Positions 22,942 to 58,358 of a stretch of DNA of 64,000 bases are shown piece after piece. The position numbers and the translations under genes were made by a program. Every line of letters begins with the position of its first letter. The first letter of the stretch is position 1. Source of the DNA: Hyphomicrobiales bacterium. GTDB taxonomy: Bacteria > Pseudomonadota > Alphaproteobacteria > Rhizobiales > Aestuariivirgaceae. Where the stretch lies: NCBI GenBank assembly GCA_016185245.1, contig JACPNZ010000009.1, positions 62,001-126,000 of the forward strand, in the 5' to 3' direction. The notes beneath the pieces are model-generated. The model ran no database searches. It was not told the DNA's origin and saw only the letters and a list, made by a program, of their open reading frames with translations.

Positions 22942-23020
22942 GGGCGGGCCGCGCCTCGGATCAGGCGCCGCAGCGCCGTTGCACTTTGCCGCCCGCCCGG
23001 CCATTCTGCGCCGGGGGAAC

Positions 23021-25048: not shown

Positions 25049-26553
25049 CCAGACGCAGCAACCGGGCCGAGCGCGGCGGGACGGGGCTCATGCAGCGGCC
25101 GTTCCGTCAGACCGAACTCACCTATCGACCAATCGAAATCCTCTCCGCCGACCAGATCATGGCGATCCACCGGGCAGCACTTACCATTCTCGAAGAGGTG
25201 GGATTCAAGGTGCTGTCCGAGCGGGCCCGCGAGCTCTACCGGCAAGGCGGGGCCGATGTCGTGCCGGGCTCGGACCGGGTGCGCTTCTCCCGCGCCATGC
25301 TGATGGAGTGGATCGGCAAGGCGCCGGCGCAATTCACCCTCGCCGCCCGCGATCCCGCCAAGGCGGTAAAAGTCGGCGGACGACATTGCATCTTCGCGTC
25401 GGTCGGCGGGCCGGCCTATGTGTGCGATCTCGACAAGGGCCGCCGCACCGGCACCCATGCCGAGCAGTGCGACTATCTGAAACTCGTGCAGAGCCTCAAC
25501 GTGCTGCACCAGGAAGGCGGCGGACCCTTCGAGGCCCTCGACCTCGACCCGCGCACCCGCCATCTCGATCTCTACTATGCCCAGGCCACGCTGCTCGACA
25601 AGAACTGGCAGCCCCAGGGGCTGGGTACCCGGGTGGCGCTCGATGCCCTCGACATGGCGGCGATCTCGTTTGCAACGACCCGCGAAGCCTTGCGCGACAG
25701 GTGCGTGTTCACCACCGTCATCAACACCAATTCGCCATTGCAGCTCGACATTCCCATGGCCGAGGGGCTGATCGTCATGGCCGAGCACGGCCAGTGCAAT
25801 GTGATAACGCCGTTCACGCTCTCCGGCGCCATGAGTCCGGTGACCATCGCCGGGTCGCTGGCCCAGCAGCATGCCGAGGCGATGGCCGGCATCGTACTCG
25901 CCCAGATCGTGCGGCCGGGAGTGCCGGTCATGTATGGCGGCTTCACCTCGAACGTCGACATGAAGTCGGGAGCGCCGGCCTTCGGCACGCCGGAATATAC
26001 CCAGGCCGCCCAGGCCTCGGGCCAACTCGCCCGGCTCCTCAAGCTGCCGTTCCGCTCCAGCAATGTGACGGCGGCCAACGATGTCGACGCGCAAGCCGCT
26101 TACGAGAGCATGATGTCGCTGTGGGGGGCGGTGATGGGCGGCGCCAATCTGGTGCTGCACGCGGCGGGTTGGCTCAACGGCGGGCTCACCGCCTCCTTCG
26201 AGAAGCTGATCATCGATGCGGAACTGTTGCAGATGATGCAGGCCTATTGCGAACCCTTCGCGGTGACGCCGGAAACGCTGGCCCTCGAGGCGGTGCGGGA
26301 TGTGGGGCCGGCCGGGCATTTCTTCGGCACGGCGCACACGCTGGCCCGCTACCAGACGGCCTTCTACAAGCCGCTCCTCTCCAACTGGGACAATTACGAT
26401 AGCTGGGTCGAGCGCGGCCGCGATACCGCTCCGCAAAAGGCCAATCGCATCTGGAAGCAACTCCTGGCGGATTATCAGAAGCCGCTGCTCGATCCGGCGA
26501 TCGACGACGCTCTCAAGGATTTCGTGGCAAGGCGGAAGCGCCAATATGGATGA
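25045..26553 (+). CDS. MttB-family methyltransferase without pyrrolysine
   Basis: 502 residues of the trimethylamine methyltransferase (MttB) superfamily, which move a methyl group from a quaternary or tertiary amine to a corrinoid protein. Family blocks seen are ALTILEEVGFKVLSERARELY, GRHCIFASVGGPAYVCD, SGAMSPVTIAGSLAQQHAEAM split across strands, and PVMYGGFTSNVDMKSGAPAFGTPE. There is no in-frame amber, so it is of the non-pyrrolysine type that includes glycine betaine methyltransferase MtgB. No corrinoid protein or reactivase is in the window. The start overlaps the flavoprotein stop (ATGA), linking the two enzymes. The 3' end overlaps the convergent ABC ATPase gene by 41 bases. Confidence 0.88.
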   Translation: MTRRSNRAERGGTGLMQRPFRQTELTYRPIEILSADQIMAIHRAALTILEEVGFKVLSERARELYRQGGADVVPGSDRVRFSRAMLMEWIGKAPAQFTLAARDPAKAVKVGGRHCIFASVGGPAYVCDLDKGRRTGTHAEQCDYLKLVQSLNVLHQEGGGPFEALDLDPRTRHLDLYYAQATLLDKNWQPQGLGTRVALDALDMAAISFATTREALRDRCVFTTVINTNSPLQLDIPMAEGLIVMAEHGQCNVITPFTLSGAMSPVTIAGSLAQQHAEAMAGIVLAQIVRPGVPVMYGGFTSNVDMKSGAPAFGTPEYTQAAQASGQLARLLKLPFRSSNVTAANDVDAQAAYESMMSLWGAVMGGANLVLHAAGWLNGGLTASFEKLIIDAELLQMMQAYCEPFAVTPETLALEAVRDVGPAGHFFGTAHTLARYQTAFYKPLLSNWDNYDSWVERGRDTAPQKANRIWKQLLADYQKPLLDPAIDDALKDFVARRKRQYG

Positions 26554-33029: not shown

Positions 33030-33284
33030 ATGTTGACGGCACCGCAATTGAGGGCAGCCCGGGCGCTGCTCGGCATCGACCAGCAGACCCTGGCCGACAT
33101 GGCCGGCGTGTCGCTGCCGACGATCCAGCGCATGGAAGCCAGCAGCGACTATGTGCGCGGCGTGGTCGGCACCCTCACCAAGGTTCTCGAGGCCCTTGAC
33201 CGGGCCGGCGTCGAAGTGATCGGCGACAACGCCACAAGTTCCGGCGGCGGCCGCGGCGTGCGCTTCAAGGTGCCGGCGCGATGA
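33030..33284 (+). CDS. Small XRE-type HTH regulator coupled to the Hyf-like operon
   Basis: 84-residue DNA-binding protein. The helix-turn-helix is ARALLGIDQQTLADMAGVS followed by the recognition helix LPTIQRMEAS, near residues 9-38. The C-terminus is a short strand-rich tail (GVEVIGDNA, GVRFKVPAR). Its stop overlaps the hyfB start (ATGA), so it is probably the first gene of the complex operon and a candidate for its regulator. An upstream ATG at 32964 is in frame, but the XRE-like sequence begins at 33030. Confidence 0.88.
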   Translation: MLTAPQLRAARALLGIDQQTLADMAGVSLPTIQRMEASSDYVRGVVGTLTKVLEALDRAGVEVIGDNATSSGGGRGVRFKVPAR

Positions 33285-35305
33285 GCCCGGAAATGGCCAC
33301 GCCACTGCTTGCCGCGATCATTGGGGCAATCGCGATCTATGGTCTGGCGGCCCTTCTGGCTGGAGCAATTGGCGGTCGAGCCTTGGCGCTGGTCTATCCT
33401 ACCGCCATCGCCGGCGCGGCCCTGGCCGCGGGCGGCGACCTTGCAGCGCTTGTCGGCCAGAGCGACGCCATGCTGCAACTGCCGATGGGCCTGCCGGCGA
33501 CCGGCCTCCATCTCCGGCTCGACGGGCTTTCGGCCTTCTTCGGCCTGATCGTCAATGTCGGCGTGCTGGCGGCCGCAATCTACGGGCTGGGGCTCGACCG
33601 CGAGCACGGTCTCAACCCCCGCGTCGAGCCCTTCTTCGCGCTCTTCGCGGCGGCGATGAACCTGGTGCTGATCGCCGCCGACGCCTTCAGCTTCCTGTTC
33701 TCCTGGGAACTCATGTCGCTCGCCTCCTGGGCCCTGGTGGTGGCGCGCCACGATGACGCCGACAACCGCCACGCGGGCCATGTCTATCTGGTGATGGCGG
33801 CGATGGGCACAACGGCGCTGCTCTTTGTCTTCGGCGGGCTGGCCGGGATCGCCGGCAACTATTCTTTCGCCGCCATGCGCGAAGCCCATCCCTCGGTGAC
33901 GGTCGTCGCTTTGGTGTTGACCGGCACCATCGTCGGCGCCGGATCGAAAGCGGGCCTCGTACCGCTCCATGCCTGGCTGCCGCTCGCCCATCCGGCGGCG
34001 CCCAGCCATGTTTCGGCGCTGATGAGCGGGGTCATGACCAAGGTGGCGATCTACGGAATGATTCGCATCGTCTTCGATCTCCTGGGGGCGCCCTCCTGGT
34101 GGTGGTCGCTGCCGTTCCTGCTGCTGGGGGCGGCCTCGGCGGTGATGGGCCTTCTCTATGCGGTGCTCGACCGCGACCTGAAGCGGATGCTCGCTTACTC
34201 GACGGTGGAAAACGTCGGCATCATATCGGTGGGGCTGGGGCTGGCGCTGGCCTTCAAGTCGTCGGGGCTCGATGCCGCCGCGGCGGTCGCGACGTCGGCC
34301 GCCCTGCTCCACTCGCTCAACCATTCGTGGTTCAAGTCGCTGCTCTTCCTGGGTGCCGGTGCGGTGCTGCATGGCACCGGGCGGCGCGACTTCGACGGAC
34401 TGGGCGGCCTCATCCACCGCCTGCCGGTCACCGCCGCATTGTGGCTGGTGGGCGTCATGTCGATCGCGGCACTTCCGCCGTTCAACGGCTTCGTCTCGGA
34501 ATGGCTGCTGTTCCAGGCGGTGCTGGCGGGGCCGCAGTTCCCCTATCCGATCCTGCGCTTCCTGTCGCCCGCCGTCGGCGCCATGCTGGCGCTGGCCGCC
34601 GCCCTTGCCGCCGCCTGTTTCGTGCGCGCCTATGGCACGGTGTTTCTCGGCCGGCCGAGGAGCCCCGCCGCCGCCGTTGCCCGCGAGGCGAACCGGCCGC
34701 AGCTGGCCGCCATGGGGCTGCTCGCCGTGCTGTGCCTCTTTGGCGGGTTGTTCAGCGTCTTCACCATCGCTCTCATCCAGCCGCTTCTGGTGCAATATGC
34801 CGGCATGCCGATGGCGAGCGCGGGTGCCGGCCCCACCTTCTTCTCGCTGGTGGCGATCAGCGCGGCGCGCAGCACCTATGACGCGCCGATCATCGCGCTG
34901 TTCCTGATCGTTTCGGGAACCGTCACGACCATGGCGGTGCACCGGCTGGCGGCGCGGCGCACCAGGCGCAGCGCCGCCTGGGACTGCGGCTTTCCCGACG
35001 CCTCGCCCGCCACGCAATATACCGCCTCGAGCTTCGCCCAACCGTTGCGCCGGGTCTACGGGACGGCGATGTTCGGCTCGAGCGAGCGCGTCGACATGCC
35101 GGAGCCGGGCGATCTACGGCCGGCGCGTCTCGACGTGCGCTTCGTCGATTATGTCTGGCAGGGCCTGCATGCGGCACCGGCAGGCATGGTGCTCAGTCTG
35201 TCGGAATGGCTCAACCGTCTGCAGTTCCTGTCGATCCGCCGCTATCTGATGCTGATGTTCTCGGCCCTCATCGTGCTCCTTCTCATCGCGGCAGTGTGGT
35301 TCTGA
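33281..35305 (+). CDS. hyfB: Hydrogenase-4-like membrane subunit HyfB (proton-translocating antiporter-like)
   Basis: 674-residue polytopic protein of the NuoL/MrpA/HyfB family, close in length to E. coli HyfB. The Proton_antipo_M domain is visible with SFLFSWELMSLASWALV, GAGSKAGLVPLHAWLPLAHPAAPSHVSALMSG split across helices, KRMLAYSTVENVG and HSLNHSWFKSLLFLGAGAV, including the membrane Glu, Lys and His positions used in proton translocation. A C-terminal soluble loop (AWDCGFPDASPATQYTASSF) is HyfB-typical. It starts the six-gene membrane complex and overlaps both neighbours. Confidence 0.92.
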   Translation: MSPEMATPLLAAIIGAIAIYGLAALLAGAIGGRALALVYPTAIAGAALAAGGDLAALVGQSDAMLQLPMGLPATGLHLRLDGLSAFFGLIVNVGVLAAAIYGLGLDREHGLNPRVEPFFALFAAAMNLVLIAADAFSFLFSWELMSLASWALVVARHDDADNRHAGHVYLVMAAMGTTALLFVFGGLAGIAGNYSFAAMREAHPSVTVVALVLTGTIVGAGSKAGLVPLHAWLPLAHPAAPSHVSALMSGVMTKVAIYGMIRIVFDLLGAPSWWWSLPFLLLGAASAVMGLLYAVLDRDLKRMLAYSTVENVGIISVGLGLALAFKSSGLDAAAAVATSAALLHSLNHSWFKSLLFLGAGAVLHGTGRRDFDGLGGLIHRLPVTAALWLVGVMSIAALPPFNGFVSEWLLFQAVLAGPQFPYPILRFLSPAVGAMLALAAALAAACFVRAYGTVFLGRPRSPAAAVAREANRPQLAAMGLLAVLCLFGGLFSVFTIALIQPLLVQYAGMPMASAGAGPTFFSLVAISAARSTYDAPIIALFLIVSGTVTTMAVHRLAARRTRRSAAWDCGFPDASPATQYTASSFAQPLRRVYGTAMFGSSERVDMPEPGDLRPARLDVRFVDYVWQGLHAAPAGMVLSLSEWLNRLQFLSIRRYLMLMFSALIVLLLIAAVWF

Positions 35306-36270
35306 TGGGCAACACTCTCATCCTGCTGGTGGGGCAAGGGATCCAGATGTTCCTGGTGATTCTGGTGGCGCCGGCGGTGACCGGCATCGTGAGAAGGGTC
35401 AAGGCACGCTTCATGCGGCGGCGTGGGAGCCCCATCGCGCAGCCCTACCGCGATCTCCTCAAGCTTCTCCGCAAGGAGGCGGTGGTCGCCGGCAACGCCT
35501 CGTGGCTGTTTCGCGCCGCGCCCTATGCCATTCTCGCCTTCACCTGGGTGGCGGCGGCCCTGGTGCCGACCTTCGCCTCGGGGCTGATGTTCAACTGGGC
35601 GGCCGACGCGGTGGCACTCGTCGCTCTCCTCGGCGCGGCCCGGGCCATCCTGGCGCTCGCCGGCATGGATGTCGGCACCAGTTTCGGCGGCATCGGCGCC
35701 TCGCGCGAGATGATGATCGCGACGCTGGCCGAGCCCGCCATGCTGCTGGTGCTCCTCACCATGGCGCTTACCGCCCACACCACCAGGCTTCCGGAAATCG
35801 CCGACTACTTCATCGGCGCGCCGATCACGGTCCGGGTGTCGCTGGCCCTGGCGCTGGCTGCGCTCACCATGGTGGCGCTGGCCGAGAACGCCCGCATCCC
35901 GGTCGACAATCCCGCCACCCATCTCGAACTCACCATGGTGCACGAGGCCATGGTGCTGGAATATTCCGGCCGCCACCTGGCCGTGATCGAGCTCGCCGCC
36001 CAGCTCAAGCTGGTGCTCTATATTTCGCTCATCGCCAGCCTGTTCCTGCCCTTCGGCATGGCTCCCGCCACGGCGGGCGTCGTCGCCTGGATCGCCGGGG
36101 CCGCCACTTACCTGGCCAAGCTCGTCTTCGCCGCCGTGCTTCTCGGCGTGTGGGAGGTGAGCATCGCCAAGATGCGCATCTTCCGGGTCAGCGAATTCCT
36201 GGGTGGCGCCTTCGTTTTCGCCTTCCTGGCTATTCTCCTTGCCTTCCTTACCGGCGAGGTGACGCGATGA
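35305..36270 (+). CDS. hyfC: Hydrogenase-4-like membrane subunit HyfC (NuoH-like)
   Basis: 321-residue membrane protein of the NuoH/HycD/HyfC family, the subunit joining the peripheral arm to the membrane arm. The first cytoplasmic loop has RRGSPIAQPYRDLLKLLRKE, the family signature, followed by GGIGASREMMIATLAEPAML and ENARIPVDNPATHLELTMVH with conserved acidic and arginine residues. Eight or so hydrophobic segments are visible. The ATG overlaps the hyfB stop. Confidence 0.92.
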   Translation: MGNTLILLVGQGIQMFLVILVAPAVTGIVRRVKARFMRRRGSPIAQPYRDLLKLLRKEAVVAGNASWLFRAAPYAILAFTWVAAALVPTFASGLMFNWAADAVALVALLGAARAILALAGMDVGTSFGGIGASREMMIATLAEPAMLLVLLTMALTAHTTRLPEIADYFIGAPITVRVSLALALAALTMVALAENARIPVDNPATHLELTMVHEAMVLEYSGRHLAVIELAAQLKLVLYISLIASLFLPFGMAPATAGVVAWIAGAATYLAKLVFAAVLLGVWEVSIAKMRIFRVSEFLGGAFVFAFLAILLAFLTGEVTR

Positions 36271-36926
36271 ACTACGCCTACAACGTCTCGCATCTCCTTG
36301 CTGGCCTCATGCTGGTGGCAAGCTTCGCGCTTCTCTACCAGGACCGTATCTTCGCGGTGCTCAACACCTTCGCCGCCCAGGCCATGCTGCTCGCCATGTC
36401 GGTGGGCTGGGAGGGGTGGAGTCAGGGGCGGCCCAATCTCTATATCACCGCGGCCATCGCCCTCATCCTCAAGGGCATCGTCATACCGGTGGCGCTGCAC
36501 CGGATGATCGTCAGGCTCGGCATCCACCGCGACGTCGAGCAGGTCCTGAATGTCGGCAAGACGCTGCTCATCGGGCTGGCGCTCACCGCCTTGTCGCTGC
36601 TCCTCGTTCTCAAGGTGACGGCGGCGGCCCAAAACTTCACCCGCGAGGGCCTGGCCCTGGCGCTGGCCATCATCCTGCTCGGCCTCCTGATGATGATCAC
36701 CAGGCGCAACGCCGTCACCCAGATCGTCGGCTTCATGTCGCTGGAGAACGGGCTGATCCTCGCCGCCACGGGGGCACGCGGCATGCCGCTAGTGGTCGAG
36801 GTGAGCGTCGCCTTCTCGGTGCTGATCGCACTCTTCGTCTTTGCCGTCTTCGTGTTTCGCATCCGCGAGCGCTTCGACAGCGTCGATATCGACGCCCTCG
36901 AACAGGTGCGGGGCGACCGCAAATGA
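36267..36926 (+). CDS. hyfE: Hydrogenase-4-like membrane subunit HyfE
   Basis: 219-residue membrane protein of the HyfE family, distantly related to NuoK. Hydrophobic segments alternate with short loops; the NuoK-like block VTQIVGFMSLENGLILAATG carries the membrane glutamate expected in a proton channel. The C-terminus is cytoplasmic and acidic (RFDSVDIDALEQVRGDRK). The start overlaps the hyfC stop and the stop overlaps the hyfF start. Confidence 0.9.
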   Translation: MNYAYNVSHLLAGLMLVASFALLYQDRIFAVLNTFAAQAMLLAMSVGWEGWSQGRPNLYITAAIALILKGIVIPVALHRMIVRLGIHRDVEQVLNVGKTLLIGLALTALSLLLVLKVTAAAQNFTREGLALALAIILLGLLMMITRRNAVTQIVGFMSLENGLILAATGARGMPLVVEVSVAFSVLIALFVFAVFVFRIRERFDSVDIDALEQVRGDRK

Positions 36927-38359
36927 TCGCTTCTGTCAGCCTGGTGATCGGCATTCCCTTCGCGGCAGCGCTGGTGATGACGCTCATCCCCTCTTACCGG
37001 CTGTCGGCCTTCGGCAATGTGCTGGCGATGGGGGCGACTTTCGCCGCCGGCCTGTCGCTGCTCGGCGTCACCCAGGAGGCCGGCACCTATTTCATCATCG
37101 ACGACGTCAACATCCTGTTCGTCATCCTCAACACGCTCGTCGGCTTCACCACCTCGGTGTTCAGCGCCAGCTACATCGGTCACGAGATCGAGACCGGGAG
37201 GCTCACGCCCCTCTTCGTGCGCTTCTACCACGCCATGTTCCTCGCCATGATGGGGGCGATGAACCTGGCGCTCACCGCCAACAACATCGGCCTCCTGTGG
37301 GTGGGCCTGGAGCTCGCCACCCTGATCACCGTGGTGATGGTCGGCATCTACCGCACCCCGGCGGCGATCGAGGCGGCGTGGAAATACTTCATCCTCGGCA
37401 GCGTCGGCATCTCGCTGGCCTTCTTCGGCACCATCCTCATCTATCTCGCCGGCCAGGCAGCGCTCGGCGAAGGCATGCCGGCGATGACCTGGAGCCTGTT
37501 GCAGGCCAATGCCGCCAAGCTCGACGCCTCGCTCCTCAACCTCGCCTTCATCTTCCTGCTCATCGGCTACGGCACCAAGGTGGGTCTCGCTCCGCTCCAT
37601 GCCTGGCTGCCCGACGCCCATGCCGAGGGTCCCACACCCATATCGGCGGTGCTCTCGGGGCTTCTCCTCAATGTCGCACTCTATGCGCTGTTGCGCTTCA
37701 AGATGATCGTGGCGGCCCATCCGGCGGCCATCGATCCCGGCCCGGTGATGATCGTCATGGGCCTCATCTCGCTCATTTTCGCCGCCTTCATGCTGTACCA
37801 GCGGCGCGACATCAAGCGGCTCTTCGCCTATTCCTCGATCGAGCACATGGGGCTCATCGTCTTCGCCTTCGGCATGGGCGGCATGCTGGCCAATTTCGCC
37901 GGGCTCCTGCACATGGCGATACACAGTCTCACCAAGTCGGCGATCTTCTTCACCGTCGGCCATGTGGCGCAGGCCAAGGAGACCCAGCGCATCGCCGACA
38001 TCCGGGGCTTGAGCGTCAGCCATCCGGCCCTTGCCATAGGCCTTGCGGCCGGCGTTTTCGCCATTTCAGGCCTGCCGCCCTTCGGCGCCTTCATGAGCGA
38101 ATTCCTGATCGTCACCACCACCTTCGCGCGGAGCCCCTGGCTCGCTCTGTTCCCGGTCTTCGGACTGCTCATCGCCTTCGGCGCCATGCTGCTGCGGCTG
38201 CAGGACATGCTCTTCGGCGAGCCGGTGGGGCCGTCACACCGGGTGAAGGCCTCGTCCCTGCCGCTGGTGCTGCATCTGGGGCTCGTCCTGATCGCCGGGC
38301 TCTATTTGCCGCCGCATCTGGCGGGCTGGCTCGAACGGGCCTCGGAGCTGCTCAAGTGA
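36923..38359 (+). CDS. hyfF: Hydrogenase-4-like membrane subunit HyfF (proton-translocating)
   Basis: 478-residue NuoL/M/N-type subunit. Key features are LLWVGLELATLITVVMVG with the helix-5 Glu, WKYFILGSVGISLAF, GTKVGLAPLHAWLPDAHAEG, PTPISAVLSGLLLNVALYAL, KRLFAYSSIEHMGLIVFA and HSLTKSAIFFTVGH. These match antiporter-like proton channels, so with HyfB the complex has two candidate pumping subunits. The ATG overlaps hyfE; the TGA overlaps the GTG start of hyfG. Confidence 0.92.
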   Translation: MIASVSLVIGIPFAAALVMTLIPSYRLSAFGNVLAMGATFAAGLSLLGVTQEAGTYFIIDDVNILFVILNTLVGFTTSVFSASYIGHEIETGRLTPLFVRFYHAMFLAMMGAMNLALTANNIGLLWVGLELATLITVVMVGIYRTPAAIEAAWKYFILGSVGISLAFFGTILIYLAGQAALGEGMPAMTWSLLQANAAKLDASLLNLAFIFLLIGYGTKVGLAPLHAWLPDAHAEGPTPISAVLSGLLLNVALYALLRFKMIVAAHPAAIDPGPVMIVMGLISLIFAAFMLYQRRDIKRLFAYSSIEHMGLIVFAFGMGGMLANFAGLLHMAIHSLTKSAIFFTVGHVAQAKETQRIADIRGLSVSHPALAIGLAAGVFAISGLPPFGAFMSEFLIVTTTFARSPWLALFPVFGLLIAFGAMLLRLQDMLFGEPVGPSHRVKASSLPLVLHLGLVLIAGLYLPPHLAGWLERASELLK

Positions 38360-39870
38360 CCGGCCTGCAACCTTTGAGTCTTGCCGCCCTCCTGGCCGAC
38401 AAGCCGGGAGAGGGCGGGGTGGCGCGGGTGAGCGTCACCGACCGGGTATGGCGGGCCGTCGCCCTTGGCTGCCGCGACGGGCTGCATGATCTTCTGGGAC
38501 TGTGGGTCGACCGCAATTGCGTGCACATGGCGCTTGCCGATTGCGAGCGGCGGCTCCTTGCCATCGCGGCGCTGAAGCTCGGGCGCGGCGAATATCCTTC
38601 GGTCGGGCAGTTCCATGCGCCGGCCTTGCGACTTGAACGGACGCTCCGCGATCTCAAGGGGGTTACGCCGCTCGATCTTCCCGACACACGGGCCTGGATC
38701 GACCATGGCGTCTGGCCGGCACCGCCTCCCGGTCACCGGCACTGGCAGAGCCCTGAGAAACAATATGCCTTCCTCACCGCCGACGGCGGTGGCGAGGGCC
38801 TGCACCAGATCGCGGTAGGGCCGGTCCATGCCGGGATCATCGAACCGGGGCACTTCCGCTTCACCGCCAATGGCGAGGCGGTGGTCAGGCTCGAGGAACG
38901 GCTCGGCTATGTGCACAAGGGCATCGAAGCGCTTGCTACGGGAGCGAACCTCGACCAGGGGGCGCGGCTCGCCGCGCGGATTTCCGGCGACAGCACGGTG
39001 GCCTATTCCTATGCCTTCGCATTGGCCGCCGAACAGGCGACGGGAATTACGCCGCCGCGCCGTGCCGTGCTCATCCGCGCCATCATGGCCGAGCTCGAGC
39101 GCGTGTCGCATCATGTCAACGACGTCGGCGCCATCTGCAACGACGCCAGCGTCGTGGCGCTGCATGCCCGGGCCACGATCATTCGCGAGGACATGCTGCA
39201 AACGCAAGTCCGGTGCTTCGGCCATCGCCTGATGATGGACAAGATCGTGCCGGGCGGGGTTGCCACCGACCTTTCGCCCGAAGGGGCGGCCGAAATCGAA
39301 GCGCTGCTGCGGCGGGTGGAAACCGGCTTTGGCCAGATCGTGCGGGTCTATGACGAGGCGCCGTCGCTGCAGGATCGCACCGTCACCACCGGCATCCTGA
39401 AGCCCGAGCTCGCCCGCCGCTTCGCCGCCGGCGGCTTCGTCGGGCGGGGCTCGGGCCGGGCCTTCGACACCCGTGCCATCTTCCCCTATCCGCCCTATGA
39501 CGAACTTTCCTTCCGGCCAGCGCTGCGCAGCGAGGGCGATGTCAATGCCCGGGTGTGGATCAGGATCGACGAGGTGAGATCAAGTTTCGATCTGATCCGG
39601 CAATTGCTGAAGCTCCTTGAACCCGGCCCCACTCACAACCCGGTGCCGCCGACGGAGGGCCAGGGTTTCGCGCTGGTCGAAAGTTTTCGCGGCGACGTGC
39701 TGGTGGCGCTGAGAATGGACAGCGAGGCCCGCGTCGCCGGCTTCCATGCCCGCGATCCCTCGTGCTTCCAGTGGCCGCTGCTGGAAGCGGCGGTCGAGGG
39801 CAACATCGTCGCCGACTTCCCGCTGTGCAACAAGTCCTTCAACTGCTCCTATTCCGGACACGACATGTAA
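38356..39870 (+). CDS. hyfG: HyfG/NuoD-like large subunit lacking the [NiFe] ligand motifs
   Basis: 504 residues from a GTG overlapping the hyfF stop. The N-terminal part (to about 175) resembles the NuoC/30-kDa domain, and the rest the NuoD/hydrogenase large subunit (RLGYVHKGIEAL, IMAELERVSHHVNDVGAICND, RFAAGGFVGRGSG). The N-terminal hydrogenase motif RxCGxC is replaced by ARISGDST (ISGDS at 209-213), and the C-terminal DPCxxC by NKSFNCSYSGHDM (492-504), leaving only Cys497. A Ni-Fe site is therefore not expected. This matches energy-converting-hydrogenase-related (Ehr) complexes. The actual reaction is unknown. Confidence 0.9.
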   Translation: MTGLQPLSLAALLADKPGEGGVARVSVTDRVWRAVALGCRDGLHDLLGLWVDRNCVHMALADCERRLLAIAALKLGRGEYPSVGQFHAPALRLERTLRDLKGVTPLDLPDTRAWIDHGVWPAPPPGHRHWQSPEKQYAFLTADGGGEGLHQIAVGPVHAGIIEPGHFRFTANGEAVVRLEERLGYVHKGIEALATGANLDQGARLAARISGDSTVAYSYAFALAAEQATGITPPRRAVLIRAIMAELERVSHHVNDVGAICNDASVVALHARATIIREDMLQTQVRCFGHRLMMDKIVPGGVATDLSPEGAAEIEALLRRVETGFGQIVRVYDEAPSLQDRTVTTGILKPELARRFAAGGFVGRGSGRAFDTRAIFPYPPYDELSFRPALRSEGDVNARVWIRIDEVRSSFDLIRQLLKLLEPGPTHNPVPPTEGQGFALVESFRGDVLVALRMDSEARVAGFHARDPSCFQWPLLEAAVEGNIVADFPLCNKSFNCSYSGHDM

Positions 39871-39871
39871 C

Positions 39872-40390
39872 ATGCGCACCCTCCTCCTGCGTTCCCTCCT
39901 CGAAGGCGTTGCGGTCATCGATCCGCCCAGGCCCGATCAGCAGGCGGTGGCCGAACTCGCCGCCGCCCTGGGCCGGACGACGCGCCAGAGACTCGGCCGG
40001 TCGCTCGCCATCCGCGAGGTCGATGCCGGATCGTGCAATGCTTGCGAACTCGAAATCCACGCCCTCAGCAATCCGGTTTATGACGTCGAGCGCTTCGGCG
40101 TGAAGTTTGTCGCCTCGCCCCGCCATGCCGACGTGCTGATGGTGACGGGGCCGGTCACCTGGAACATGCGCGAGGCGCTGGAGCGCACCTATGCGGCAAC
40201 CCCTCACCCGAAATTCGTCGTGGCGGTGGGCGACTGCGCGGCCAATTGCGGGGTGTTCGCCGGTAGCTATGCCTGCGCCGGCAGGGTGGCCGACATCGTT
40301 CCCGTCGACATTCACGTGCCCGGTTGTCCGCCAGCGCCGCTCGATCTCTTGAAGAGCCTTCTGGCGCTGGTCGGGGCGATGGCGAAATAG
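39872..40390 (+). CDS. hyfI: HyfI/NuoB-like small subunit with [4Fe-4S] ligands
   Basis: 172 residues of the NuoB/hydrogenase small-subunit family. Cysteines fit one [4Fe-4S] cluster: Cys55 and Cys58 in GSCNACELE (CxxC as in hydrogenases, not the tandem CC of NuoB), Cys122 and Cys126 in VGDCAANCG, and Cys152 in VPGCPPAP. It would carry electrons next to the HyfG-like subunit. It starts one base after hyfG. No ferredoxin-type HyfA/HyfH gene follows, so the electron partner is not encoded here. The last 79 bases overlap the convergent MFS gene. Confidence 0.92.
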   Translation: MRTLLLRSLLEGVAVIDPPRPDQQAVAELAAALGRTTRQRLGRSLAIREVDAGSCNACELEIHALSNPVYDVERFGVKFVASPRHADVLMVTGPVTWNMREALERTYAATPHPKFVVAVGDCAANCGVFAGSYACAGRVADIVPVDIHVPGCPPAPLDLLKSLLALVGAMAK

Positions 40391-41674: not shown

Positions 41675-43858
41675 ATGACGACAGGGACTTCTCCAGACCT
41701 TTCCGCACTCATCGCCCGCATGAGCCTCCCTGAGAAGATCGGGCAGCTCACCATGGTCACCGGCCACTGGGCGGTCACCGGCCCACGCGCCGACCCATTG
41801 TCGCTCGCCACCTTCCGCGACGGTTCGGCGGGCTGCATTCTCAATCTGTGGAGCCCCGAGGCGATGCGCGAGGCCCAGCGCGCCGCCAGCGAGGAAAGCC
41901 GCCTCGGCATTCCGCTGATCATCGGCTTCGACGTGGTGCACGGCCACCGCACGGTGTTTCCCATTCCCCTGGGCGAGGCGGCGAGCTTCGATCCGGCACT
42001 CTGGCAGGAGACGGCGGCGGCGGCGGCGAAGGAAGCCGCAGCCGACGGCATTTCGCTCACCTTCGCACCGATGCTCGATGTGGCGCGCGATCCGCGCTGG
42101 GGCCGCATCTGCGAGGGGCCGGGCGAGGATCCCTATGTCGGCCAAGTCTTCGCCGTGGCCAAGGTCAAGGGCTTCCAGGGACGCTCGCTCGATGATCCCG
42201 CTCGCCTTGCCGCCACCGCCAAGCACATCGGCGCCTATGGCGCAACGCTCGCCGGGCGCGACTATGCCAGTGCCGATCTCTCCGAGAGCGACATGGCGGA
42301 AGTCCAGCTTCCGGCCTTCGCCAGCGCCGTTGCGGCGGGCGTTGCGGCGATCATGCCGTCGTTCAACGATATCGCCGGACTGCCGTCGACGGCCAACGCC
42401 GCGCTGCTCACCGGCCTCCTCCGCCAGCGCTGGGGCTTCGATGGCATCATTGTCAGCGACTACAATGCGGTTGCCGAGCTCATCGTCCATGGGGTGGCGG
42501 CCGACCATGCCGAGGCGGCAGCGCTCGCACTCCGGGCCGGCGTCGACATCGACATGATGGGCGGCTCCTACTCGCGCGGGCTGGCGGAGGCGCTGGTACG
42601 CGGCCTCGTCACGTTGCCCGAAATCGATGCGGCAGTTCTGCGGGTCCTTCGCCTCAAGGAGCGCCTCGGCCTCTTCGCCGATCCCTATCGCGGCATCGGC
42701 CCGGATGCGGAACCGGCACGTGTCGCCCATCGCGGGTTAGCGAGGCGGGCTGCGGCCGCGGCCATGGTGCTGCTCAAGAACGAGGCGAAGGCCCTGCCGC
42801 TCTCTTCGACCGGCGGCGCCATCGCGGTGATCGGGCCTCTCGCCCAGGCTGCCGATGACATGCTCGGCCCCTGGTCGGGAGCGGGGCGGGCCGAGGATTG
42901 TGTTACACTGCTCGACGGCATCCGCGCCGCATTTCCGGGCCGCACCATTCTTTATGAACCGGCCAGCGGCTTCGATTCCGCCAAGGCCACCATGGCGCTA
43001 GCCCGCGAGGCGGAGGCAATCGTCTTCTGCGGCGGCGAAACGCGGCGGATGAGCGGCGAGGCGAATTCGCGCGGCGAGCCCGACTTGGCCCTCGCCCAAC
43101 GCCGGCTGGCAACCAAACTCATCGCAACCGGCAAACCGGTCATCGCCATCATCTGCTGCGGCCGGCCCATCGTGCTGCCGCCGGTTCTCGTCGACAAGGC
43201 CGCCGCCATCCTGGTTGCCTGGTTCGGCGGCAGCGAGGCGGGAACCGCACTCGGCGATGTTCTCAACGGCCACAGCGAACCGGGCGGCCGGCTGCCGGTC
43301 ACCTGGCCCGCCGCCATCGGGCAGATTCCCATCTATTACGCCCGGCGCCGTTCGGGCCGGCCGGCCGACGCCCGGCAGCACTACACCTCGAAGTATCTCG
43401 ACATTCCGGTCGAGCCGCAATTCGCCTTCGGCCATGGCCTCGGCTATGCGCCGTTGCGCTTCGCCAATGCGCAGGTTGACCGCGCCACGATCGGCCCCGG
43501 CCAGAGCCTCACGGTGAGCGTCGATGTAGTGAACGACGGCAACCGCGAAGGGGCCACCGTAGCGATGCTCTATGTACAGGATCCGGTGGCCAGCCTGGCG
43601 CGGCCCATAATGCTGCTCAAGCGCTTTGAGAAAATCTCCGTCGCCCCAGGTGCTGTGGCGACGGTGCATTTCACCCTCACGACCGATGTCTTTGCCTTCC
43701 TTGGCATCGACATGGAGCGGATCGTCGAAAGCGGCCGCATCGATCTTCTGATCGGCGGGCGGGCGGTGGAAGAGGAACTGCTGCGGCTTACCATCGAGGT
43801 GACCGGCGGTCGCAGCCACATCGCTGCCGCATCCGTCCGAGCCGCCGTCAATAGGTGA
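41675..43858 (+). CDS. Glycoside hydrolase family 3 (beta-glucosidase-like), cytoplasmic
   Basis: 727 residues. The GH3 N-terminal barrel has the substrate-binding blocks GFDVVHGHRTVFPIPLG, RDPRWGRICEGPGEDP and KHIGAYGA, and the nucleophile Asp in IIVSDYNAVAEL. The C-terminal sandwich holds LLKNEAKALPL and the FGHGLGYAPLRF segment, then a fibronectin-III-like tail with LKRFEKISVAPGAVATVHF. No signal peptide is seen, unlike periplasmic BglX, so it should act in the cytoplasm on imported beta-glycosides. It ends overlapping the convergent pilus gene by 11 bases. Confidence 0.92.
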   Translation: MTTGTSPDLSALIARMSLPEKIGQLTMVTGHWAVTGPRADPLSLATFRDGSAGCILNLWSPEAMREAQRAASEESRLGIPLIIGFDVVHGHRTVFPIPLGEAASFDPALWQETAAAAAKEAAADGISLTFAPMLDVARDPRWGRICEGPGEDPYVGQVFAVAKVKGFQGRSLDDPARLAATAKHIGAYGATLAGRDYASADLSESDMAEVQLPAFASAVAAGVAAIMPSFNDIAGLPSTANAALLTGLLRQRWGFDGIIVSDYNAVAELIVHGVAADHAEAAALALRAGVDIDMMGGSYSRGLAEALVRGLVTLPEIDAAVLRVLRLKERLGLFADPYRGIGPDAEPARVAHRGLARRAAAAAMVLLKNEAKALPLSSTGGAIAVIGPLAQAADDMLGPWSGAGRAEDCVTLLDGIRAAFPGRTILYEPASGFDSAKATMALAREAEAIVFCGGETRRMSGEANSRGEPDLALAQRRLATKLIATGKPVIAIICCGRPIVLPPVLVDKAAAILVAWFGGSEAGTALGDVLNGHSEPGGRLPVTWPAAIGQIPIYYARRRSGRPADARQHYTSKYLDIPVEPQFAFGHGLGYAPLRFANAQVDRATIGPGQSLTVSVDVVNDGNREGATVAMLYVQDPVASLARPIMLLKRFEKISVAPGAVATVHFTLTTDVFAFLGIDMERIVESGRIDLLIGGRAVEEELLRLTIEVTGGRSHIAAASVRAAVNR

Positions 43859-44816
43859 CGGTGACCACCACATTGTCGGTGTAGGTCATGGGGGGCGGCG
43901 TCGTCTGTACGGGCACCCGGCCATAGCCCGTATAGTTTTGCGCGGCACCCGTGCCGGTGGCGGTGAGGGTGTCGGTGCCGGAGGTGCTGCCCCAGGGCTG
44001 GCTCATGGCCGCATCCCGGTAGATGCCATAGGTGACCTTGCTGGTGGTGGCGGTGTTGCTCATCTTCCGCGCCGTAGGGCCGGTTCCGCCGGAAGAGCCG
44101 TTGCTCAGGCCTACCTCGTAGAGCGTTCCGGAGGTGCAGTTCACCGAAATGCTGTTGGTGGTGGTCTTGACCGTGGCAAGCGTGCCGGTGCTGCCGAAGG
44201 CCAGGTTGGTGGCCGAAACCGTGCAGGTCGATTCATTGGTGAGGCGCACGATGAAGGGCGCCTGGGTGAGATTGGGCAAGGGTGCCGGCTGGCAGTTCTG
44301 CACATTGGAGTAGTTGTAGGCGATCTGGGTGTTGTTGCCGCCGAAAGACGACAGGAAGGTGCCGGTCGGAATGCCGGTCTGATTGTTGGCGAGGCGAGCA
44401 TAGATGGTCCGGGTAAGCGTTCCGGTGCCGTTGGCGCCGAGCGACAGCAGCATGCCGGGCGGGCGCGGCGAGCGGTTCCACAGGGCGGTGAAGGACCCCC
44501 ACACCTGGCCGAAGCCATTGTTGGTATAGATGTTGTAGGCAAGCCGGGTCACGCCCTGCAGCATGTAGCGCAGCGAGCCGTCGCTGTTGGCGCCGCCACT
44601 GCCGGCATTGAAATTGGCGCAGATGCGCACCTGGGTGTTGGGCGTGCCGGTGCAGGTGGCGGTGAAGGTGCCGGTGGTCTGGATATTGTTGGAGGTGGCG
44701 ACCCCGACATTGCCGAAATCGAGGCCGGTATTGGTGAAGCTGCATGCCTGGGCCCCAGCCGGCTGGCTGGAGATTGCGAGCAACGCCACCGCCAGGGCGA
44801 GCGCTCTCAACCGCAT
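43848..44816 (-). CDS. Csu-type pilus tip/minor subunit with two spore coat U domains
   Basis: 322-residue exported protein. The signal peptide MRLRALALAVALLAISSQPAGA is followed by two spore-coat-U (SCPU) beta-sandwich domains, one from ACSFTNTGLDFGNVGV and one from STCTVSATNLAFGSTG, each with paired cysteines and ending in strand-rich repeats (YTDNVVVTVTY at the C-terminus). Two-domain subunits at this operon position correspond to the CsuE-like tip adhesin. It is the last gene of the four-gene operon and overlaps the usher stop by 10 bases. Confidence 0.88.
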   Translation of the reverse strand: MRLRALALAVALLAISSQPAGAQACSFTNTGLDFGNVGVATSNNIQTTGTFTATCTGTPNTQVRICANFNAGSGGANSDGSLRYMLQGVTRLAYNIYTNNGFGQVWGSFTALWNRSPRPPGMLLSLGANGTGTLTRTIYARLANNQTGIPTGTFLSSFGGNNTQIAYNYSNVQNCQPAPLPNLTQAPFIVRLTNESTCTVSATNLAFGSTGTLATVKTTTNSISVNCTSGTLYEVGLSNGSSGGTGPTARKMSNTATTSKVTYGIYRDAAMSQPWGSTSGTDTLTATGTGAAQNYTGYGRVPVQTTPPPMTYTDNVVVTVTY

Positions 44817-47176
44817 GGCAGGGGCCCGATGCTGGCCTGGCCGGAGGCTTCCGGCTTGAAGGCGAAATGGACCTGGCAGGTGCGGGGGCCGTCGGTCACC
44901 GTCACGTCGTTCTGCGGACCCACTCCCGTCAGATAGACCTGGCCATCATAACCCATGGTGAATGTCTCCGGCGATCCGGCGAGGCTGACGGTCGCGCCCG
45001 GCGTCAGGTCCTTGCCGTCGCCATCCTTCAGCGTCAACAGGGCCGCTGTCTGGTCGGTCTTGACCCCAAAATCAACGACGACGCCGCTCAACTCGCGCGG
45101 CACGATCTCCACTTCAGCTTGCGGAGCAACCGCAGCCAGCGGCAGGTCGTTGACGTTGATGGCGATCTTGTTGCGTTCGAAAGAGCGCAATTGCGGCAGC
45201 AGCAGCTTGCCGTCGCCGCCGGTGGTGCCGGCATAGCGGTTTTCATACTCGACCTTGACCCCCGGGGCCCCGGCATCGATGACGGCGAAACTGTCAGCGA
45301 TATGATTTCCCAGCAGCAGCCCGCCGTTGGCCGCCACCACGGCGCCATCGATCGCCACATTGGCGTTGACCGCGCCGCCGCGTTCGATGATGCGGCCCTC
45401 GAGGCGGGCATTGCTCGTCTGGTAGCTGGCACCGGCAGCACTGTAGGAGGTGTTGCCCTCGCCGTCGGCAACGGTCCAGCCATAGGAGCCGGGGGTTCCG
45501 TCGCTGGTCTTGGTCGCTTCCGCCACCGCCGTCCAGCTCTTGCCGGCGGTGGCGATGCCGGCCGAGATCGAGACATCGCCCAATGGCATCGAGAAGCCGG
45601 CGAAGGCGCCATAGTCGCGGGCCCTGCCGAAATCGGAAAAGCCGCTGACATAGGCGGTGAGATTGTGGCCGAAGCTCTGGGTATAGCTGCCGCTGACGAT
45701 CAGCGAGCGCTTGCCATCGGCCGCCAGCTGGTGGACGAAATTGACGCCAATTCCCGCCTTGAGCTCGGGAAAGCCGTAGTTGACGCCGATCTGGTCGAGG
45801 GCCCTGGGAACTCCCGACCACAGGCTGTCGTTCGATGTGGGTCTGGCGGTGACCGCCGCCAGATCGTTGAAATCGCCGAAGGCCCGGCTGGTCGACAGGT
45901 TGAGGCCGAGGCGGCCGAAGCGGGCCTCCCAGCCGGCATGGACGAAGAGGCCCGTGTCGCCCTTGTAGTCGCTGGCGGCGATTGCGGCGTTGAACAGGCC
46001 GAAGCGTCCGGCCGAGACGAGGCTGCCGACGCCCACGTCGATCAGGTCGCGCTGGGCTTCGGCGTGGAATTCGGCGGTCATCATGTCGGCCAGACCATAG
46101 CGCAGGCTGGCCGCCGCCGCCGCATTGTCATAGCCGAAGGATTCGCTGCCGAAGCCGGTGCGGGCCACGCCCGCCTCAAGGGAGAAATCGTAGAGATCCT
46201 TCTTCAACAGATCGGGCGAGGTGAAGAACTCCTGTTCGCTGTCGATCTCGCGGCCGGTCGCGTCGGTGAGCACCACGCGCGCCGTCCCGGAACTGGTGTA
46301 GACCGGCAGGTTCTCGATGCGAAAGGGGCCGGGCGAGACATCGCTGGAATAGGTCTCGATGCCGCCGACGAAGACCTTGACCGTCGAGGGCACCTCGGCG
46401 CTGCCGTCGATCTGCGGCAGCGGCATGGTGATGAGATCGGGCCTCAGGCCGAAGTTGCGCCGCACCTGGATGCCGCCCATGCGGATCGGCCGGGTCCAGG
46501 CCAGGCCGCCGCTGATGATGTCGCCCAACTGATAGGTGCGCAAGCTCCCGGGGTCCGACCAGGTCCAATTGGTATCGAGGCGAAGGGCGGTGAAATCCGA
46601 AAACGTGGTGGTGCCGACGATGCCGGTCTGGCGCAGCGCGCCAAAGCGCGAAAAGGCCCGGGCATCGAGCGACAGGTTGGCGCCATCGACGGCAGTGGTC
46701 GAGTTGGGGATATTGTAGTTGGCCGAACCGTGGGCGGTATAGTTGACGACCGCTCCGGTCGAGCTCGCGGGCATCAGCAGATCGCCCTTGCCGGCGCCGT
46801 CGATGGTCTTGGCGGCGCGGGACCCATCGGGCAGTTCGATGGCGATCGACTGGGCCGCCTCGTCATAGACATAGGTAACGCCGGCAATCGAGTTGAGGCG
46901 GATCAGCTCGTCGGGCGGGCCGTCGCCCGGCACCAGGATGCCGATGTCGGTCAGTTCCGAGCGGGCCGAGGCGAGCTGGCCATCGGGCAACAGGGCAAAG
47001 GCAGCGATGACATTCGCCGGATAGCCGTTGAGGCGGACCTCGAGTTGCAGGGAAACCGGCGGAGGTTCGGCTGTCGCGGCCTGCCCGGCAAGCGGAATCA
47101 GAAGCAGGGCAAGCAGAACGGCCAACCGCGCGCTAGTTCGCCGCAACCACCCGCACTGTCGCTTCGATCGGACCAT
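44807..47176 (-). CDS. Csu-type fimbrial outer-membrane usher
   Basis: 789 residues. A basic N-terminus and hydrophobic core (RLAVLLALLLIPLAGQAATA) form the signal peptide. The remainder is a FimD/PapC-type usher: an N-terminal chaperone-binding domain, a long beta barrel (RTYQLGDIISGGLAW, IRMGGIQVRRNFGLRPDL), a plug-like insert (VEVPSTVKVFVGGIETYSSDV region), and C-terminal domains ending CQVHFAFKPEA. It would secrete and assemble pilin. The start at 47176 lies 44 bases inside the chaperone reading frame. It depends on the interrupted chaperone gene upstream. Confidence 0.9.
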   Translation of the reverse strand: MVRSKRQCGWLRRTSARLAVLLALLLIPLAGQAATAEPPPVSLQLEVRLNGYPANVIAAFALLPDGQLASARSELTDIGILVPGDGPPDELIRLNSIAGVTYVYDEAAQSIAIELPDGSRAAKTIDGAGKGDLLMPASSTGAVVNYTAHGSANYNIPNSTTAVDGANLSLDARAFSRFGALRQTGIVGTTTFSDFTALRLDTNWTWSDPGSLRTYQLGDIISGGLAWTRPIRMGGIQVRRNFGLRPDLITMPLPQIDGSAEVPSTVKVFVGGIETYSSDVSPGPFRIENLPVYTSSGTARVVLTDATGREIDSEQEFFTSPDLLKKDLYDFSLEAGVARTGFGSESFGYDNAAAAASLRYGLADMMTAEFHAEAQRDLIDVGVGSLVSAGRFGLFNAAIAASDYKGDTGLFVHAGWEARFGRLGLNLSTSRAFGDFNDLAAVTARPTSNDSLWSGVPRALDQIGVNYGFPELKAGIGVNFVHQLAADGKRSLIVSGSYTQSFGHNLTAYVSGFSDFGRARDYGAFAGFSMPLGDVSISAGIATAGKSWTAVAEATKTSDGTPGSYGWTVADGEGNTSYSAAGASYQTSNARLEGRIIERGGAVNANVAIDGAVVAANGGLLLGNHIADSFAVIDAGAPGVKVEYENRYAGTTGGDGKLLLPQLRSFERNKIAINVNDLPLAAVAPQAEVEIVPRELSGVVVDFGVKTDQTAALLTLKDGDGKDLTPGATVSLAGSPETFTMGYDGQVYLTGVGPQNDVTVTDGPRTCQVHFAFKPEASGQASIGPLPCG

Positions 47177-47858
47177 TGTCACTCTGAGCGATGATTTTGA
47201 CGGTTGTACCGGGAACCAGTTTCTTGCCGGCCTTGGCGGTCCATTGCCGGCCCGAATGGCCGAGCACATAGCCCGCCAGACCGTCGCCGAAGCTGACGGC
47301 GGAGCCCGACTGGGCAACAGCCCTTAGGGCCGACAGCTTGATGCGGCGGGCCCCGGCATTGTCGGCCGACAGGGTGAGGGCACCCTAGCTGAGTTCGGCC
47401 CTCCAGGAAATCTCGGGTGCTATGCCGGCGGTGGTGAAGAACACTGGGATCGAATAGCGGACATTGAAGTTGACGCCGTTGATGCCGGGCTTGAGGGCGG
47501 CCGGAATTTCGTCGACGACGAGGCGATAGCCTTCCTCGCCGGCGATCGGCTGCTTCGTGGTGCGGACGATGCGAATGACCGACTTCTGTCCGGCCACCAT
47601 CCTGACGGCCGGCGGGCTGACCACCGCATCGGTGGTGGCGACGAGGTCGTCCCTGCCGCCCGTCTGCTGCCATCGGAAGATGCGAATCTGGGCGTTGACC
47701 ACCGTCGCGCCCAGATTCTCGAGAGTGAGCGTCGTTGCCGCCCCCGGTGCCGGAACCTCGATGTTGACAGGTGCCACCTGCAGCGACGCGGCCGAAGCCG
47801 CGCCGGCCGCGGCCAGCAATTGCATGACAAGGACAGTTCCGGCAACGGAGATACGCAT
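47133..47858 (-). pseudogene. Csu-type pilus chaperone interrupted by an in-frame amber codon
   Basis: Starting MRISVAGTVLVMQLLAAAGAASA (signal peptide), the protein shows the periplasmic chaperone N-terminal Ig domain (RIFRWQQTGGRDDL, SVIRIVRTT, YRLVVDEIP, VRYSIPVFF). Codon 158 is TAG (47385-47387). The same frame then continues without further stops for 83 codons, through DNAGARRIKLSALRAVA, GYVLGHSGRQWTAKAGKKL and DNGPIEATVRVVAAN, the expected second domain, to a terminal TAG at 47133-47135. Full length would be 241 residues. The truncated 157-residue product would lack the second domain, so assembly of this pilus is doubtful unless the amber is suppressed or is a sequence error. Confidence 0.85.
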
Positions 47859-47868
47859 GGCGACGACC

Positions 47869-48321
47869 TTAGTAGGTAACGTAGACGGTCTCGGTGTCGG
47901 TGTAGGTGGCAGACGACGGCGTGTTCTGCGCCGGCACGTTGCCACCAACCGTGTAGCTCTGCACGCTACCGTTGCCGGTGCCGCCGGTCGACGACAGTGT
48001 GGCAGTGTAGGCCACATCCTCGCCGTTGCCGGCGTTGGTCATCGCCGCGGTGATCGAACCGACGGTCGCGCTGTTGCTCAGCGAGATCGCGTAGCCGGTG
48101 CCGTTGGTGCATTGGATATCAAGCCCGGCCGAGGCGGTGCGGGCCGTGTCGAGCACGCCATAGCTGCCGAAGTTCAGATTGCCCAGAGACTGGATCTTGC
48201 ATTCGGCCTGGATGGTGATCGAGGCATTGAAGTTGCTGCTGACCGTCGTTGCTGCGACGGCGGCGGCGGAGGCACTGGCGATCGCCGCCACGGCGGCGAT
48301 CGGAAGAACGAGTTTACGCAT
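47869..48321 (-). CDS. Csu-type pilin subunit (spore coat U domain)
   Basis: 150-residue exported pilin. The signal peptide MRKLVLPIAAVAAIASASAA is followed by one spore-coat-U domain with two cysteines (AECKIQSLGNLNFGSYG and LDIQCTNGTGYAISLSN) and the usual C-terminal strand ETVYVTY. It is the first gene of the operon, as expected for the major subunit. AGGAAG precedes the ATG at 48321. The chaperone gene starts 10 bases after its stop. Confidence 0.9.
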   Translation of the reverse strand: MRKLVLPIAAVAAIASASAAAVAATTVSSNFNASITIQAECKIQSLGNLNFGSYGVLDTARTASAGLDIQCTNGTGYAISLSNSATVGSITAAMTNAGNGEDVAYTATLSSTGGTGNGSVQSYTVGGNVPAQNTPSSATYTDTETVYVTY

Positions 48322-48638
48322 GACACTTCCTATTACGCTGTGTTGACGGAGCCGAACCGGCCGAAACATGTCGCCATGTCCAGGCCCCCTTCCGTCTCCG
48401 GCGGAATTTCTATTCAATTAGACTCTAAGTTGAGGTCAATAATTCTACTTAAGTGCACCATAAGCGAATGCGCCAGTTTGAGTCACAACGCCGCCCACCC
48501 CGGCACTTCAAGGAGTTGCCGGGCAGACGGTTCGACCTACGAGTCAAGCCTGTGAAAGATGAGTTGTCGCGTAACGAATCAGCGCGACACGCTTTGTAAA
48601 GCATGGCACGCGAATGGCCTTCGGCCGTAGTCGGAGCG
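48322..48638. other. Intergenic region upstream of the pilus operon
   Basis: 317 bases between the pilin gene start and the end of the small HTH gene. I see no supported gene in it. It is less GC-rich than the surroundings around 48410-48480, holds the candidate pilus promoter, and presumably any operator for the pilus operon. No clear RNA gene or terminator hairpin was recognised. Confidence 0.6.
48411..48439 (-). promoter_or_regulatory. Candidate promoter of the pilus operon
   Basis: On the minus strand TTGACC and TGAATA are separated by 17 bases, about 90 bases upstream of the pilin start, in a locally AT-rich stretch. The -35-like hexamer is good and the -10 weak. It is a pattern match only. 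Confidence 0.3.
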
Positions 48639-55791: not shown

Positions 55792-55793
55792 CT

Positions 55794-55821: not shown

Positions 55822-55843
55822 CGCACAAGAAAAGTGGTTCAGC

Positions 55844-58348: not shown

Positions 58349-58358
58349 GGAACAGGTG

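Follow-up and report, generated by a model that had tools for sequence, protein, structure and literature searches.

A hyqRBCEFGI operon in a Hyphomicrobiales genome encodes a hydrogenase-like complex lacking the [NiFe] ligands

The stretch of DNA analysed here, 64,000 nucleotides of a Hyphomicrobiales bacterium (contig JACPNZ010000009.1, positions 62,001 to 126,000), is called the window. It hosts a hyq operon, made of a helix-turn-helix (HTH) regulator gene and of six genes homologous to those of hydrogenase-4 and complex I. The large subunit, HyqG, lacks the ligands of the [NiFe] site. The seven genes, and the two HyqG motifs replacing the ligands, are the following.

33030..33284, + strand: hyqR, XRE/HipB-like helix-turn-helix regulator, first gene of the operon (HTH_3, 1.8e-6)
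33281..35305, + strand: hyqB (hyfB), NuoL/M-type antiporter-like subunit, 674 aa (NF005086 'hydrogenase 4 subunit B', 755 bits, above cut-off)
35305..36270, + strand: hyqC (hyfC), HyfC/NuoH-like membrane anchor, 321 aa (PF00146, 7e-36)
36267..36926, + strand: hyqE (hyfE), HyfE-like subunit with a NuoK-related C-terminal half (NF008556 and PF00420, both sub-threshold)
36923..38359, + strand: hyqF (hyfF), antiporter-like subunit, 478 aa (NF005043 'hydrogenase 4 subunit F', 763 bits, above cut-off)
38356..39870, + strand: hyqG (hyfG), fused NuoC/NuoD-like large subunit, 504 aa, GTG start, without NiFe ligands (PF00346, 1e-36)
38983..38994, + strand: HyqG S210-G211-D212-S213, replacing the N-terminal CGxC (alignment to HycE, MbhL and Nqo4; motif tables)
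39826..39867, + strand: HyqG C-terminus C491-NKSFN-C497-SYSGHDM, replacing DPCxxC (HycE alignment; motif tables)
39872..40390, + strand: hyqI (hyfI), HycG/NuoB-like small subunit, 172 aa, one [4Fe-4S] site (PF01058, 2e-31)

All six hyqBCEFGI genes are complete and open at 33281-40390, where a first-pass annotation of the window had placed a HyfB/C/E/F/G/I set. The overlap of adjacent genes it reported is found for all neighbours, by 1-4 nt, except hyfG and hyfI, which are 1 nt apart. hyqR (33030-33284), missing in that annotation, overlaps the start of hyfB by 4 nt; it occupies the equivalent place in relatives, and is annotated as an HTH gene in Rhizobium johnstonii 3841 and Bradyrhizobium. 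Subunits were assigned to complex I/Hyf families by Pfam and NCBIfam, the hyfE matches falling under the curated cut-offs (PF00420, 6e-5; NF008556 'hydrogenase 4 membrane subunit', 4e-23). Eighty related loci, the best of at least 584 relatives, were compared; 47 have exactly the order R-B-C-E-F-G-I, and many of the others are broken by contig ends.

A set of the same seven genes was named hyqRBCEFGI in Azorhizobium caulinodans in 2009 (PMC2650096), and the loss of the HyqG cysteines was published by the same group in 2012 (PMC3357923); the six-gene set has been noted in Cupriavidus as hyfBCEFGI (PMC2864759). The window operon is hyqRBCEFGI, a known and poorly understood kind, and the observation on the NiFe site is not new. 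The identity is deduced from gene order, protein length, three cysteines, and the relatives found in R. johnstonii 3841 and Xanthobacter autotrophicus, which are the same species as, or near kin of, hyq carriers named in PMC2650096. Both operons have seven genes in the same order, a HyqG of 504 residues devoid of either CxxC, and a HyqI with four cluster cysteines, and C261, C491 and C497 correspond by position and context to Azorhizobium Cys258, 491 and 497. They differ in that the genome hosting the window has no match to nifD, hypD or hypE, and that a crude scan upstream of the operon gave no convincing site for sigma-54 or NifA. Within 350 bp the best site had 6/11 matches, and TGT-N10-ACA did not occur. 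Scores of at least 8 were obtained in 5 of 55 upstream regions and in 165 of 1100 mononucleotide shuffles, gene starts of the loci being estimated; the regions thus do not exceed the shuffles. A NifA/sigma-54 promoter was accordingly rejected as a feature of the protein family; such control, as in Azorhizobium, is a one-species trait.

In public records, such as the plasmid record CP053209.2 (H9) and others of its kind, HyqG goes by the name 'hydrogenase expression protein HypE' or 'NADH-quinone oxidoreductase subunit C', and the family is thereby hidden from name searches. The 'hypE' gene mutated in Mesorhizobium was considered as a misnamed hyqG and discarded, as it encodes a 355-residue HypE (PMC10454058).

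HyqG was aligned to Escherichia coli HycE (7z0s_E; HMMER, E 1.1e-47), Thermus Nqo4 and Pyrococcus MbhL. In both the HMMER and the multiple alignment the CGIC of HycE corresponds to SGDS (residues 210-213), and D-P-C-Y-S-C to N-C-S-Y-S-G. The C-terminal end is NKSFNCSYSGHDM at the position of the hydrogenase DPCxxC; the protein stops three residues past N-C-S-Y-S-G, has no C-terminal extension, and its last residue is aligned with the Arg after which HycE is cleaved in maturation. Neither CxxC is present in any of 55 aligned HyqG rows, the window plus 54 relatives 53-70% identical to it. G211, D212, Glu163, C261, D263 and C491 are invariant (55/55); S210 is found in 54 rows (Cys in the other), S213 in 52 (Ala in three) and C497 in 52 (Gly in three). 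Conservation of SGDS across the 55 rows indicates that the loss of the NiFe ligands is no chance mutation. The NiFe ligands of HyqG are gone, and the replacements reported in the first-pass annotation, ISGDS for CGxC and NKSFNCSYSG for DPCxxC, are sustained by the HycE alignment, the multiple alignment and the 55 relatives.

Among solved structures, HycE (7z0s_E) comes closest to HyqG by both sequence and Foldseek (TMq 0.83). The window complex shares subunit homology with hydrogenase-4 and formate hydrogenlyase (Hyf, Hyc); it differs from them in lacking the NiFe ligands and, unlike loci L098-L100, the C-terminal extension. HyfA, HyfD and HyfH are members of the E. coli Hyf set, and their equivalents are absent from the window operon. 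Three features of group 4 [NiFe] hydrogenases, the CxxC ligands, a match to the Hyp maturation genes hypD and hypE in the genome, and the extension removed by a protease, are all missing. By position, Glu163 aligns with MbhL Glu21, named as key to proton reduction in Mbh (PMC7684303), and Asp263 with Nqo4 Asp139. The cavity is thus deprived of both known ligand sets, and retains a hydrogenase-type Glu and conserved polar residues. The AlphaFold model of HyqG has a mean pLDDT of 82.9; residues 136-184, and nearly all of 482-504, score below 50. As these are the residues expected to build the site, the model does not resolve it. A three-Cys metal site in place of NiFe was also considered. The idea is weakened, because C497 is Gly in 3 of the 55 rows, C261 is lost in genomes G035 and G200, and C491 is frequently a different residue in the wider clade.

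A search extended to the phylum gave matches in 46 of 200 genomes, hydrogenases counted in. Outside the hydrogenases and genome G026, no CxxC pair was found in 36 genomes of this sample. Proteins of the wider clade feature SGDS-like and NKSFN-like motifs and an identical end, and often differ at the position of Cys491; L149 and L152 have an SGDC motif, yet no Cys pair. In a 49-row tree the 41 Cys-less rows form one clade (support 100/99), which adjoins three NiFe hydrogenases and is apart from five NuoD. The tree and motif tables agree with the earlier placement of the complex as a NiFe-less 'Ehr-type' system rather than a hydrogenase. Rows labelled Hyq are not strictly monophyletic within it, and several branches are long, that of L101 being the longest. 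By description only, the window complex is like Ehr (energy-converting hydrogenase related; Geobacter GSU0739-0745), which is hydrogenase-like, described as lacking NiFe cysteines, and has HyfE- and NuoL-like subunits. No paper joining the Hyq reports with the Ehr literature was found, although not every candidate paper was examined in full.

At five loci of the wider clade a different HTH gene precedes hyfB, and the one examined includes a cupin domain. Burkholderia stagnalis, Variovorax and Allomeiothermus have the six genes, with no short regulator annotated before hyfB in a gene table that is incomplete; in related gene sets of further genomes the short hyqR was not matched either.

Some members of the wider family are atypical. 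L101 (G026:C1:750000-766000) is a very divergent HyqG-like/HyqI-like pair (25% and 35% identity), and no HyqB, C, E or F match was found in that stretch; the pair may be a soluble derivative or belong to another complex. The small subunit of L121, encoded by an Allomeiothermus silvanus plasmid (11230-12102), has 290 aa and a NuoB-like domain at 147-247; a Cys-rich stretch with CxxCxxC, ferredoxin-like in look, lies apparently outside of this domain. It is possibly a fused electron-input domain, and as such would be a hint to the donor of Hyq. L122, on a plasmid of Alicyclobacillus sp. ALC3 (8599-10095), is a solitary HyqG-like gene with DUF190 genes close by. Genome G170, listed as 0.9 Mb and 100% complete, keeps hyqC-E-F-G-I (L104; G170:C21:12988-14424), the remainder lying beyond the contig end, and has no match to HypD, NifD or the formate dehydrogenase subunit Fdh-alpha; a reduced genome retaining Hyq would be informative.

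The other subunits are well preserved. The cluster cysteines of HyqI (C55, C58, C122, C152) are kept in 106 of 106 rows, the window and the duplicate L081 being counted; its CxxC spacing equals that of hydrogenase rows, and its best solved relatives are 7z0s_G and 6cfw_J. Glu and Lys residues of antiporter-like subunits are the pump residues of complex I. In HyqB (79 rows) E143, K223, K254 and K352, and in HyqF (99 rows) E130, K219 and K338, are at least 99% conserved; E135, E143, E194, E208, E214 and E219 are conserved in 84 HyqC rows. This agrees with the earlier statement that HyfB and HyfF are intact: the complex has kept these Glu and Lys residues, and its one proximal [4Fe-4S] site as well. 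That Hyq may be a working ion channel or antiporter bearing a degenerate redox arm, its catalysis gone, is suggested by HyqG keeping neither the NiFe cysteines nor complex I His38 and Tyr87; the strong conservation of the HyqI cluster cysteines, and of SGDS and NKSFN in HyqG, makes this reading highly improbable. Hardly more plausible is a chemistry like that of the archaeal MBS, with sulfane sulfur or a disulfide entering the old cavity to be reduced by the proximal cluster. MBS likewise has no NiFe site and no His38/Tyr87, but its chemistry depends on a proximal cluster with three Cys and a shortened loop, and the counterpart of Glu163 is lost in it (PMC7684303); HyqI keeps four Cys with CxxC spacing, and HyqG retains the Glu.

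The distribution of hyqG was surveyed in 289 alphaproteobacterial genomes (class sample; match threshold E 1e-60). HyqG was found in 24 of them, in 26 copies. No CxxC occurs at the C-terminal motif of all 26, nor at the N-terminal motif of 25, that of L082 not being included. HypD is present in 5 of the 24 genomes and absent in 19, the window's genome among them; HypE is confined to the same five, and NifD is above cut-off in three, leaving 21 without nifD. HypD and NifD number 5 and 3, respectively, in the 19 HyqG genomes at least 90% complete. In the class sample Hyq is mostly found in genomes lacking hypD, hypE and nifD. The claim, made in 2010, that hyq is generally absent from non-diazotrophs (PMC2930871) is not borne out, as HyqG is common in genomes without nifD. 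The genome of the window (G000, 97.2% complete) has one HyqG, the NuoD of complex I, a cbb3 oxidase and Fdh-alpha, and no match to HypD, HypE or NifD.

A second set, formed by 45 of the 80 related loci chosen before the result was seen and hosted by genomes of unstated completeness, contains 17 genomes with HypD and 23 with NifD. HypD is missing in 28; nine of these, R. johnstonii 3841 included, have NifD, and 19 have neither. The nine, all rhizobia, also lack a HypE match. Absence of Hyp in Hyq genomes is thus common, not universal. A search with PF00374, for NiFe large subunits, was run on the 24 class genomes and these nine. In the 19 class genomes without HypD and the nine, 28 in all, every match fell within HyqG, G233 giving none; the five class genomes with HypD have extra PF00374 matches above cut-off elsewhere, which are full-length in three of them and split in two in G093 and G095, so that Hyq is not required to explain their hyp genes. 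As a control, genomes with proteins of the CGIC/DPCxxC type have hypD in 3 of 3 cases.

These data face a contradiction, as mutants tie Hyq to H2 and the sequence excludes NiFe chemistry. In N2-fixing A. caulinodans cultures at 20 uM O2 the hyq deletion evolves about 15 times as much H2 as the parent; below 1 uM O2 evolution decreases from 61,000 in dHup to 14,000 in dHup dHyq, and it remains (56,600) in a nifK dHup strain (PMC3357923). In nodules H2 recycling is abolished only in the hyq hupSL double mutant, hup/hyp operon deletion strains are said to retain it, and Rhodocista centenaria has hyq and lacks hup/hyp (PMC2930871). The former statement that H2 cannot be the substrate by the known mechanism holds for the mechanism, the NiFe ligands being lost, but H2 is the substrate for which experimental evidence was found. 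The Azorhizobium data, if correct, would mean that H2 is used without NiFe chemistry. On this reading Hyq would be a true H2-activating complex of an unknown hydrogenase type, in need of neither NiFe cysteines nor Hyp maturation, and would work as an H2:quinone oxidoreductase, as proposed by the Azorhizobium group. Culture and nodule genetics (PMC3357923, PMC2930871) favour this reading, and so does Glu163, part of the hydrogenase proton path. It is nonetheless unlikely. By their own account the authors had no cell-free H2 uptake assay at hand and consider a NiFe site in Hyq unlikely, and complementation of the hyq mutants was not found in the available text (PMC3357923). HyqG is moreover frequent in genomes without nifD, hypD or hypE. 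Of its cysteines, Cys491 and Cys497 are not kept in the wider clade, and the class genomes G035 and G200 have no Cys261. It is a shade less probable still that Hyq activates H2 at a nickel-free, Hyp-independent site, as a further kind of hydrogenase beside [NiFe], [FeFe] and [Fe]; if true, such a hydrogenase would be widespread in proteobacteria, and hidden since the known motifs are absent.

Formate was considered as well. Fdh-alpha (E up to 1e-100) is found in 22 of the 24 HyqG genomes, that of the window included, and in 143 of the 265 others (p 2e-4). Hyq might therefore be the energy-converting partner of a soluble formate dehydrogenase, carrying electrons from formate to quinone, as proposed for FDH-Ehr (PMC6349859); Geobacter has higher levels of Ehr subunits on formate than under hydrogen-containing conditions (PMC7894505). 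The idea is doubtful, because Fdh-alpha is missing in two HyqG genomes (G043, G170), no fdh cluster was found as a conserved neighbour, and ccoN, marking the cbb3 oxidase, is enriched too (16/24 against 100/265), so that genome size or lifestyle may account for both. Neither association, uncorrected for size and ancestry, is specific, and neither enzyme was retained as a linked function.

The reading tentatively preferred, to which we give slightly less than an even chance, is that Hyq, a minimal, six-subunit member of the complex I/energy-converting hydrogenase superfamily with an XRE regulator gene in front, works as a NiFe-free, ion-pumping oxidoreductase of the quinone type. Electrons would pass via the HyqI cluster between a cytoplasmic soluble carrier or dehydrogenase and an acceptor, small and hydrophobic and in all likelihood ubiquinone, lodged in the former NiFe/quinone cavity, where the conserved SGDS, NKSFNxSY and hydrogenase-type Glu163 would take over. 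Proton-coupled electron transfer to the quinone-like substrate would drive ion translocation through HyqB, C, E and F. The Azorhizobium H2 phenotypes would reflect altered electron flow and no catalysis by a NiFe centre, true H2 chemistry at an unknown site being unlikely.

The window complex has homologues of complex I NuoB, CD, H, K and L/M, and the equivalent of Asp139. It differs from complex I in that the operon has no NADH module and no NuoI, His38 and Tyr87 are absent, and HyqI has a CxxC in place of adjacent Cys (PMC7684303).

Several facts weigh against a quinone-type Hyq. Where complex I has its quinone ligands His38 and Tyr87, HyqG has Ile162 and Gly211, so that a quinone would require a new binding mode. 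The operon encodes no NuoI-like or ferredoxin-like subunit as electron donor, and no conserved gene beyond the seven was found when ORFs around the 80 loci, called crudely, were clustered. Large Hyq-dependent H2 effects were obtained in Azorhizobium, also in the nifK background (PMC3357923), as well as in nodules (PMC2930871). Genomes of the class sample that have hyq more often carry hypD (odds ratio 4.7, p 0.014) and nifD (odds ratio 7.4, p 0.02) than the others do, ancestry and genome size being uncorrected. In the phylum sample HypD was found in 14 of the 36 genomes with the Cys-less type; 16 of the 36 are at least 99% complete, and 11 of these have it. G459, a partial match, was left out of these counts.

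Candidate neighbours emerged from the same clustering. A cluster present at 21 loci turned out to be a reverse-strand ORF within the operon and was rejected; the next, of 17 loci, is scattered over differing positions and strands, and is no conserved partner. The earlier statement that the electron partner is not established is still true, as far as found. Direct docking of a soluble donor or acceptor on HyqG-HyqI is suggested by the single cluster, the absence of a ferredoxin-like subunit from the operon and the failure to find a conserved neighbour.

With the genome survey the conflict between mutants and sequence becomes more acute, and the Hyq reaction more testable. Natural test strains exist, such as R. 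johnstonii 3841, which has hyq and nifD and no hypD or hypE match. A clean test would either reveal a new H2 chemistry, or rid Hyq of a wrong name and start the search for its real substrate.

In the window, the hyq operon is preceded by a divergent oligopeptide transporter gene set, and followed by an MFS transporter gene on the opposite strand. A glycogen operon spans 55778-63280 (+ strand), and encodes a phosphorylase, the branching enzyme GlgB, a GlgC-like nucleotidyltransferase and a starch/glycogen synthase. At 43848-48417 (- strand) genes for spore-coat-U domain proteins adjoin a large usher-like ORF (44807-47317), in what looks like an adhesin cluster of the chaperone-usher type. At 22787-26553 (+ strand) an FMN/pyridine-nucleotide oxidoreductase gene is followed by one of the MttB (trimethylamine methyltransferase) family, a pair possibly involved in methylamine or betaine demethylation.

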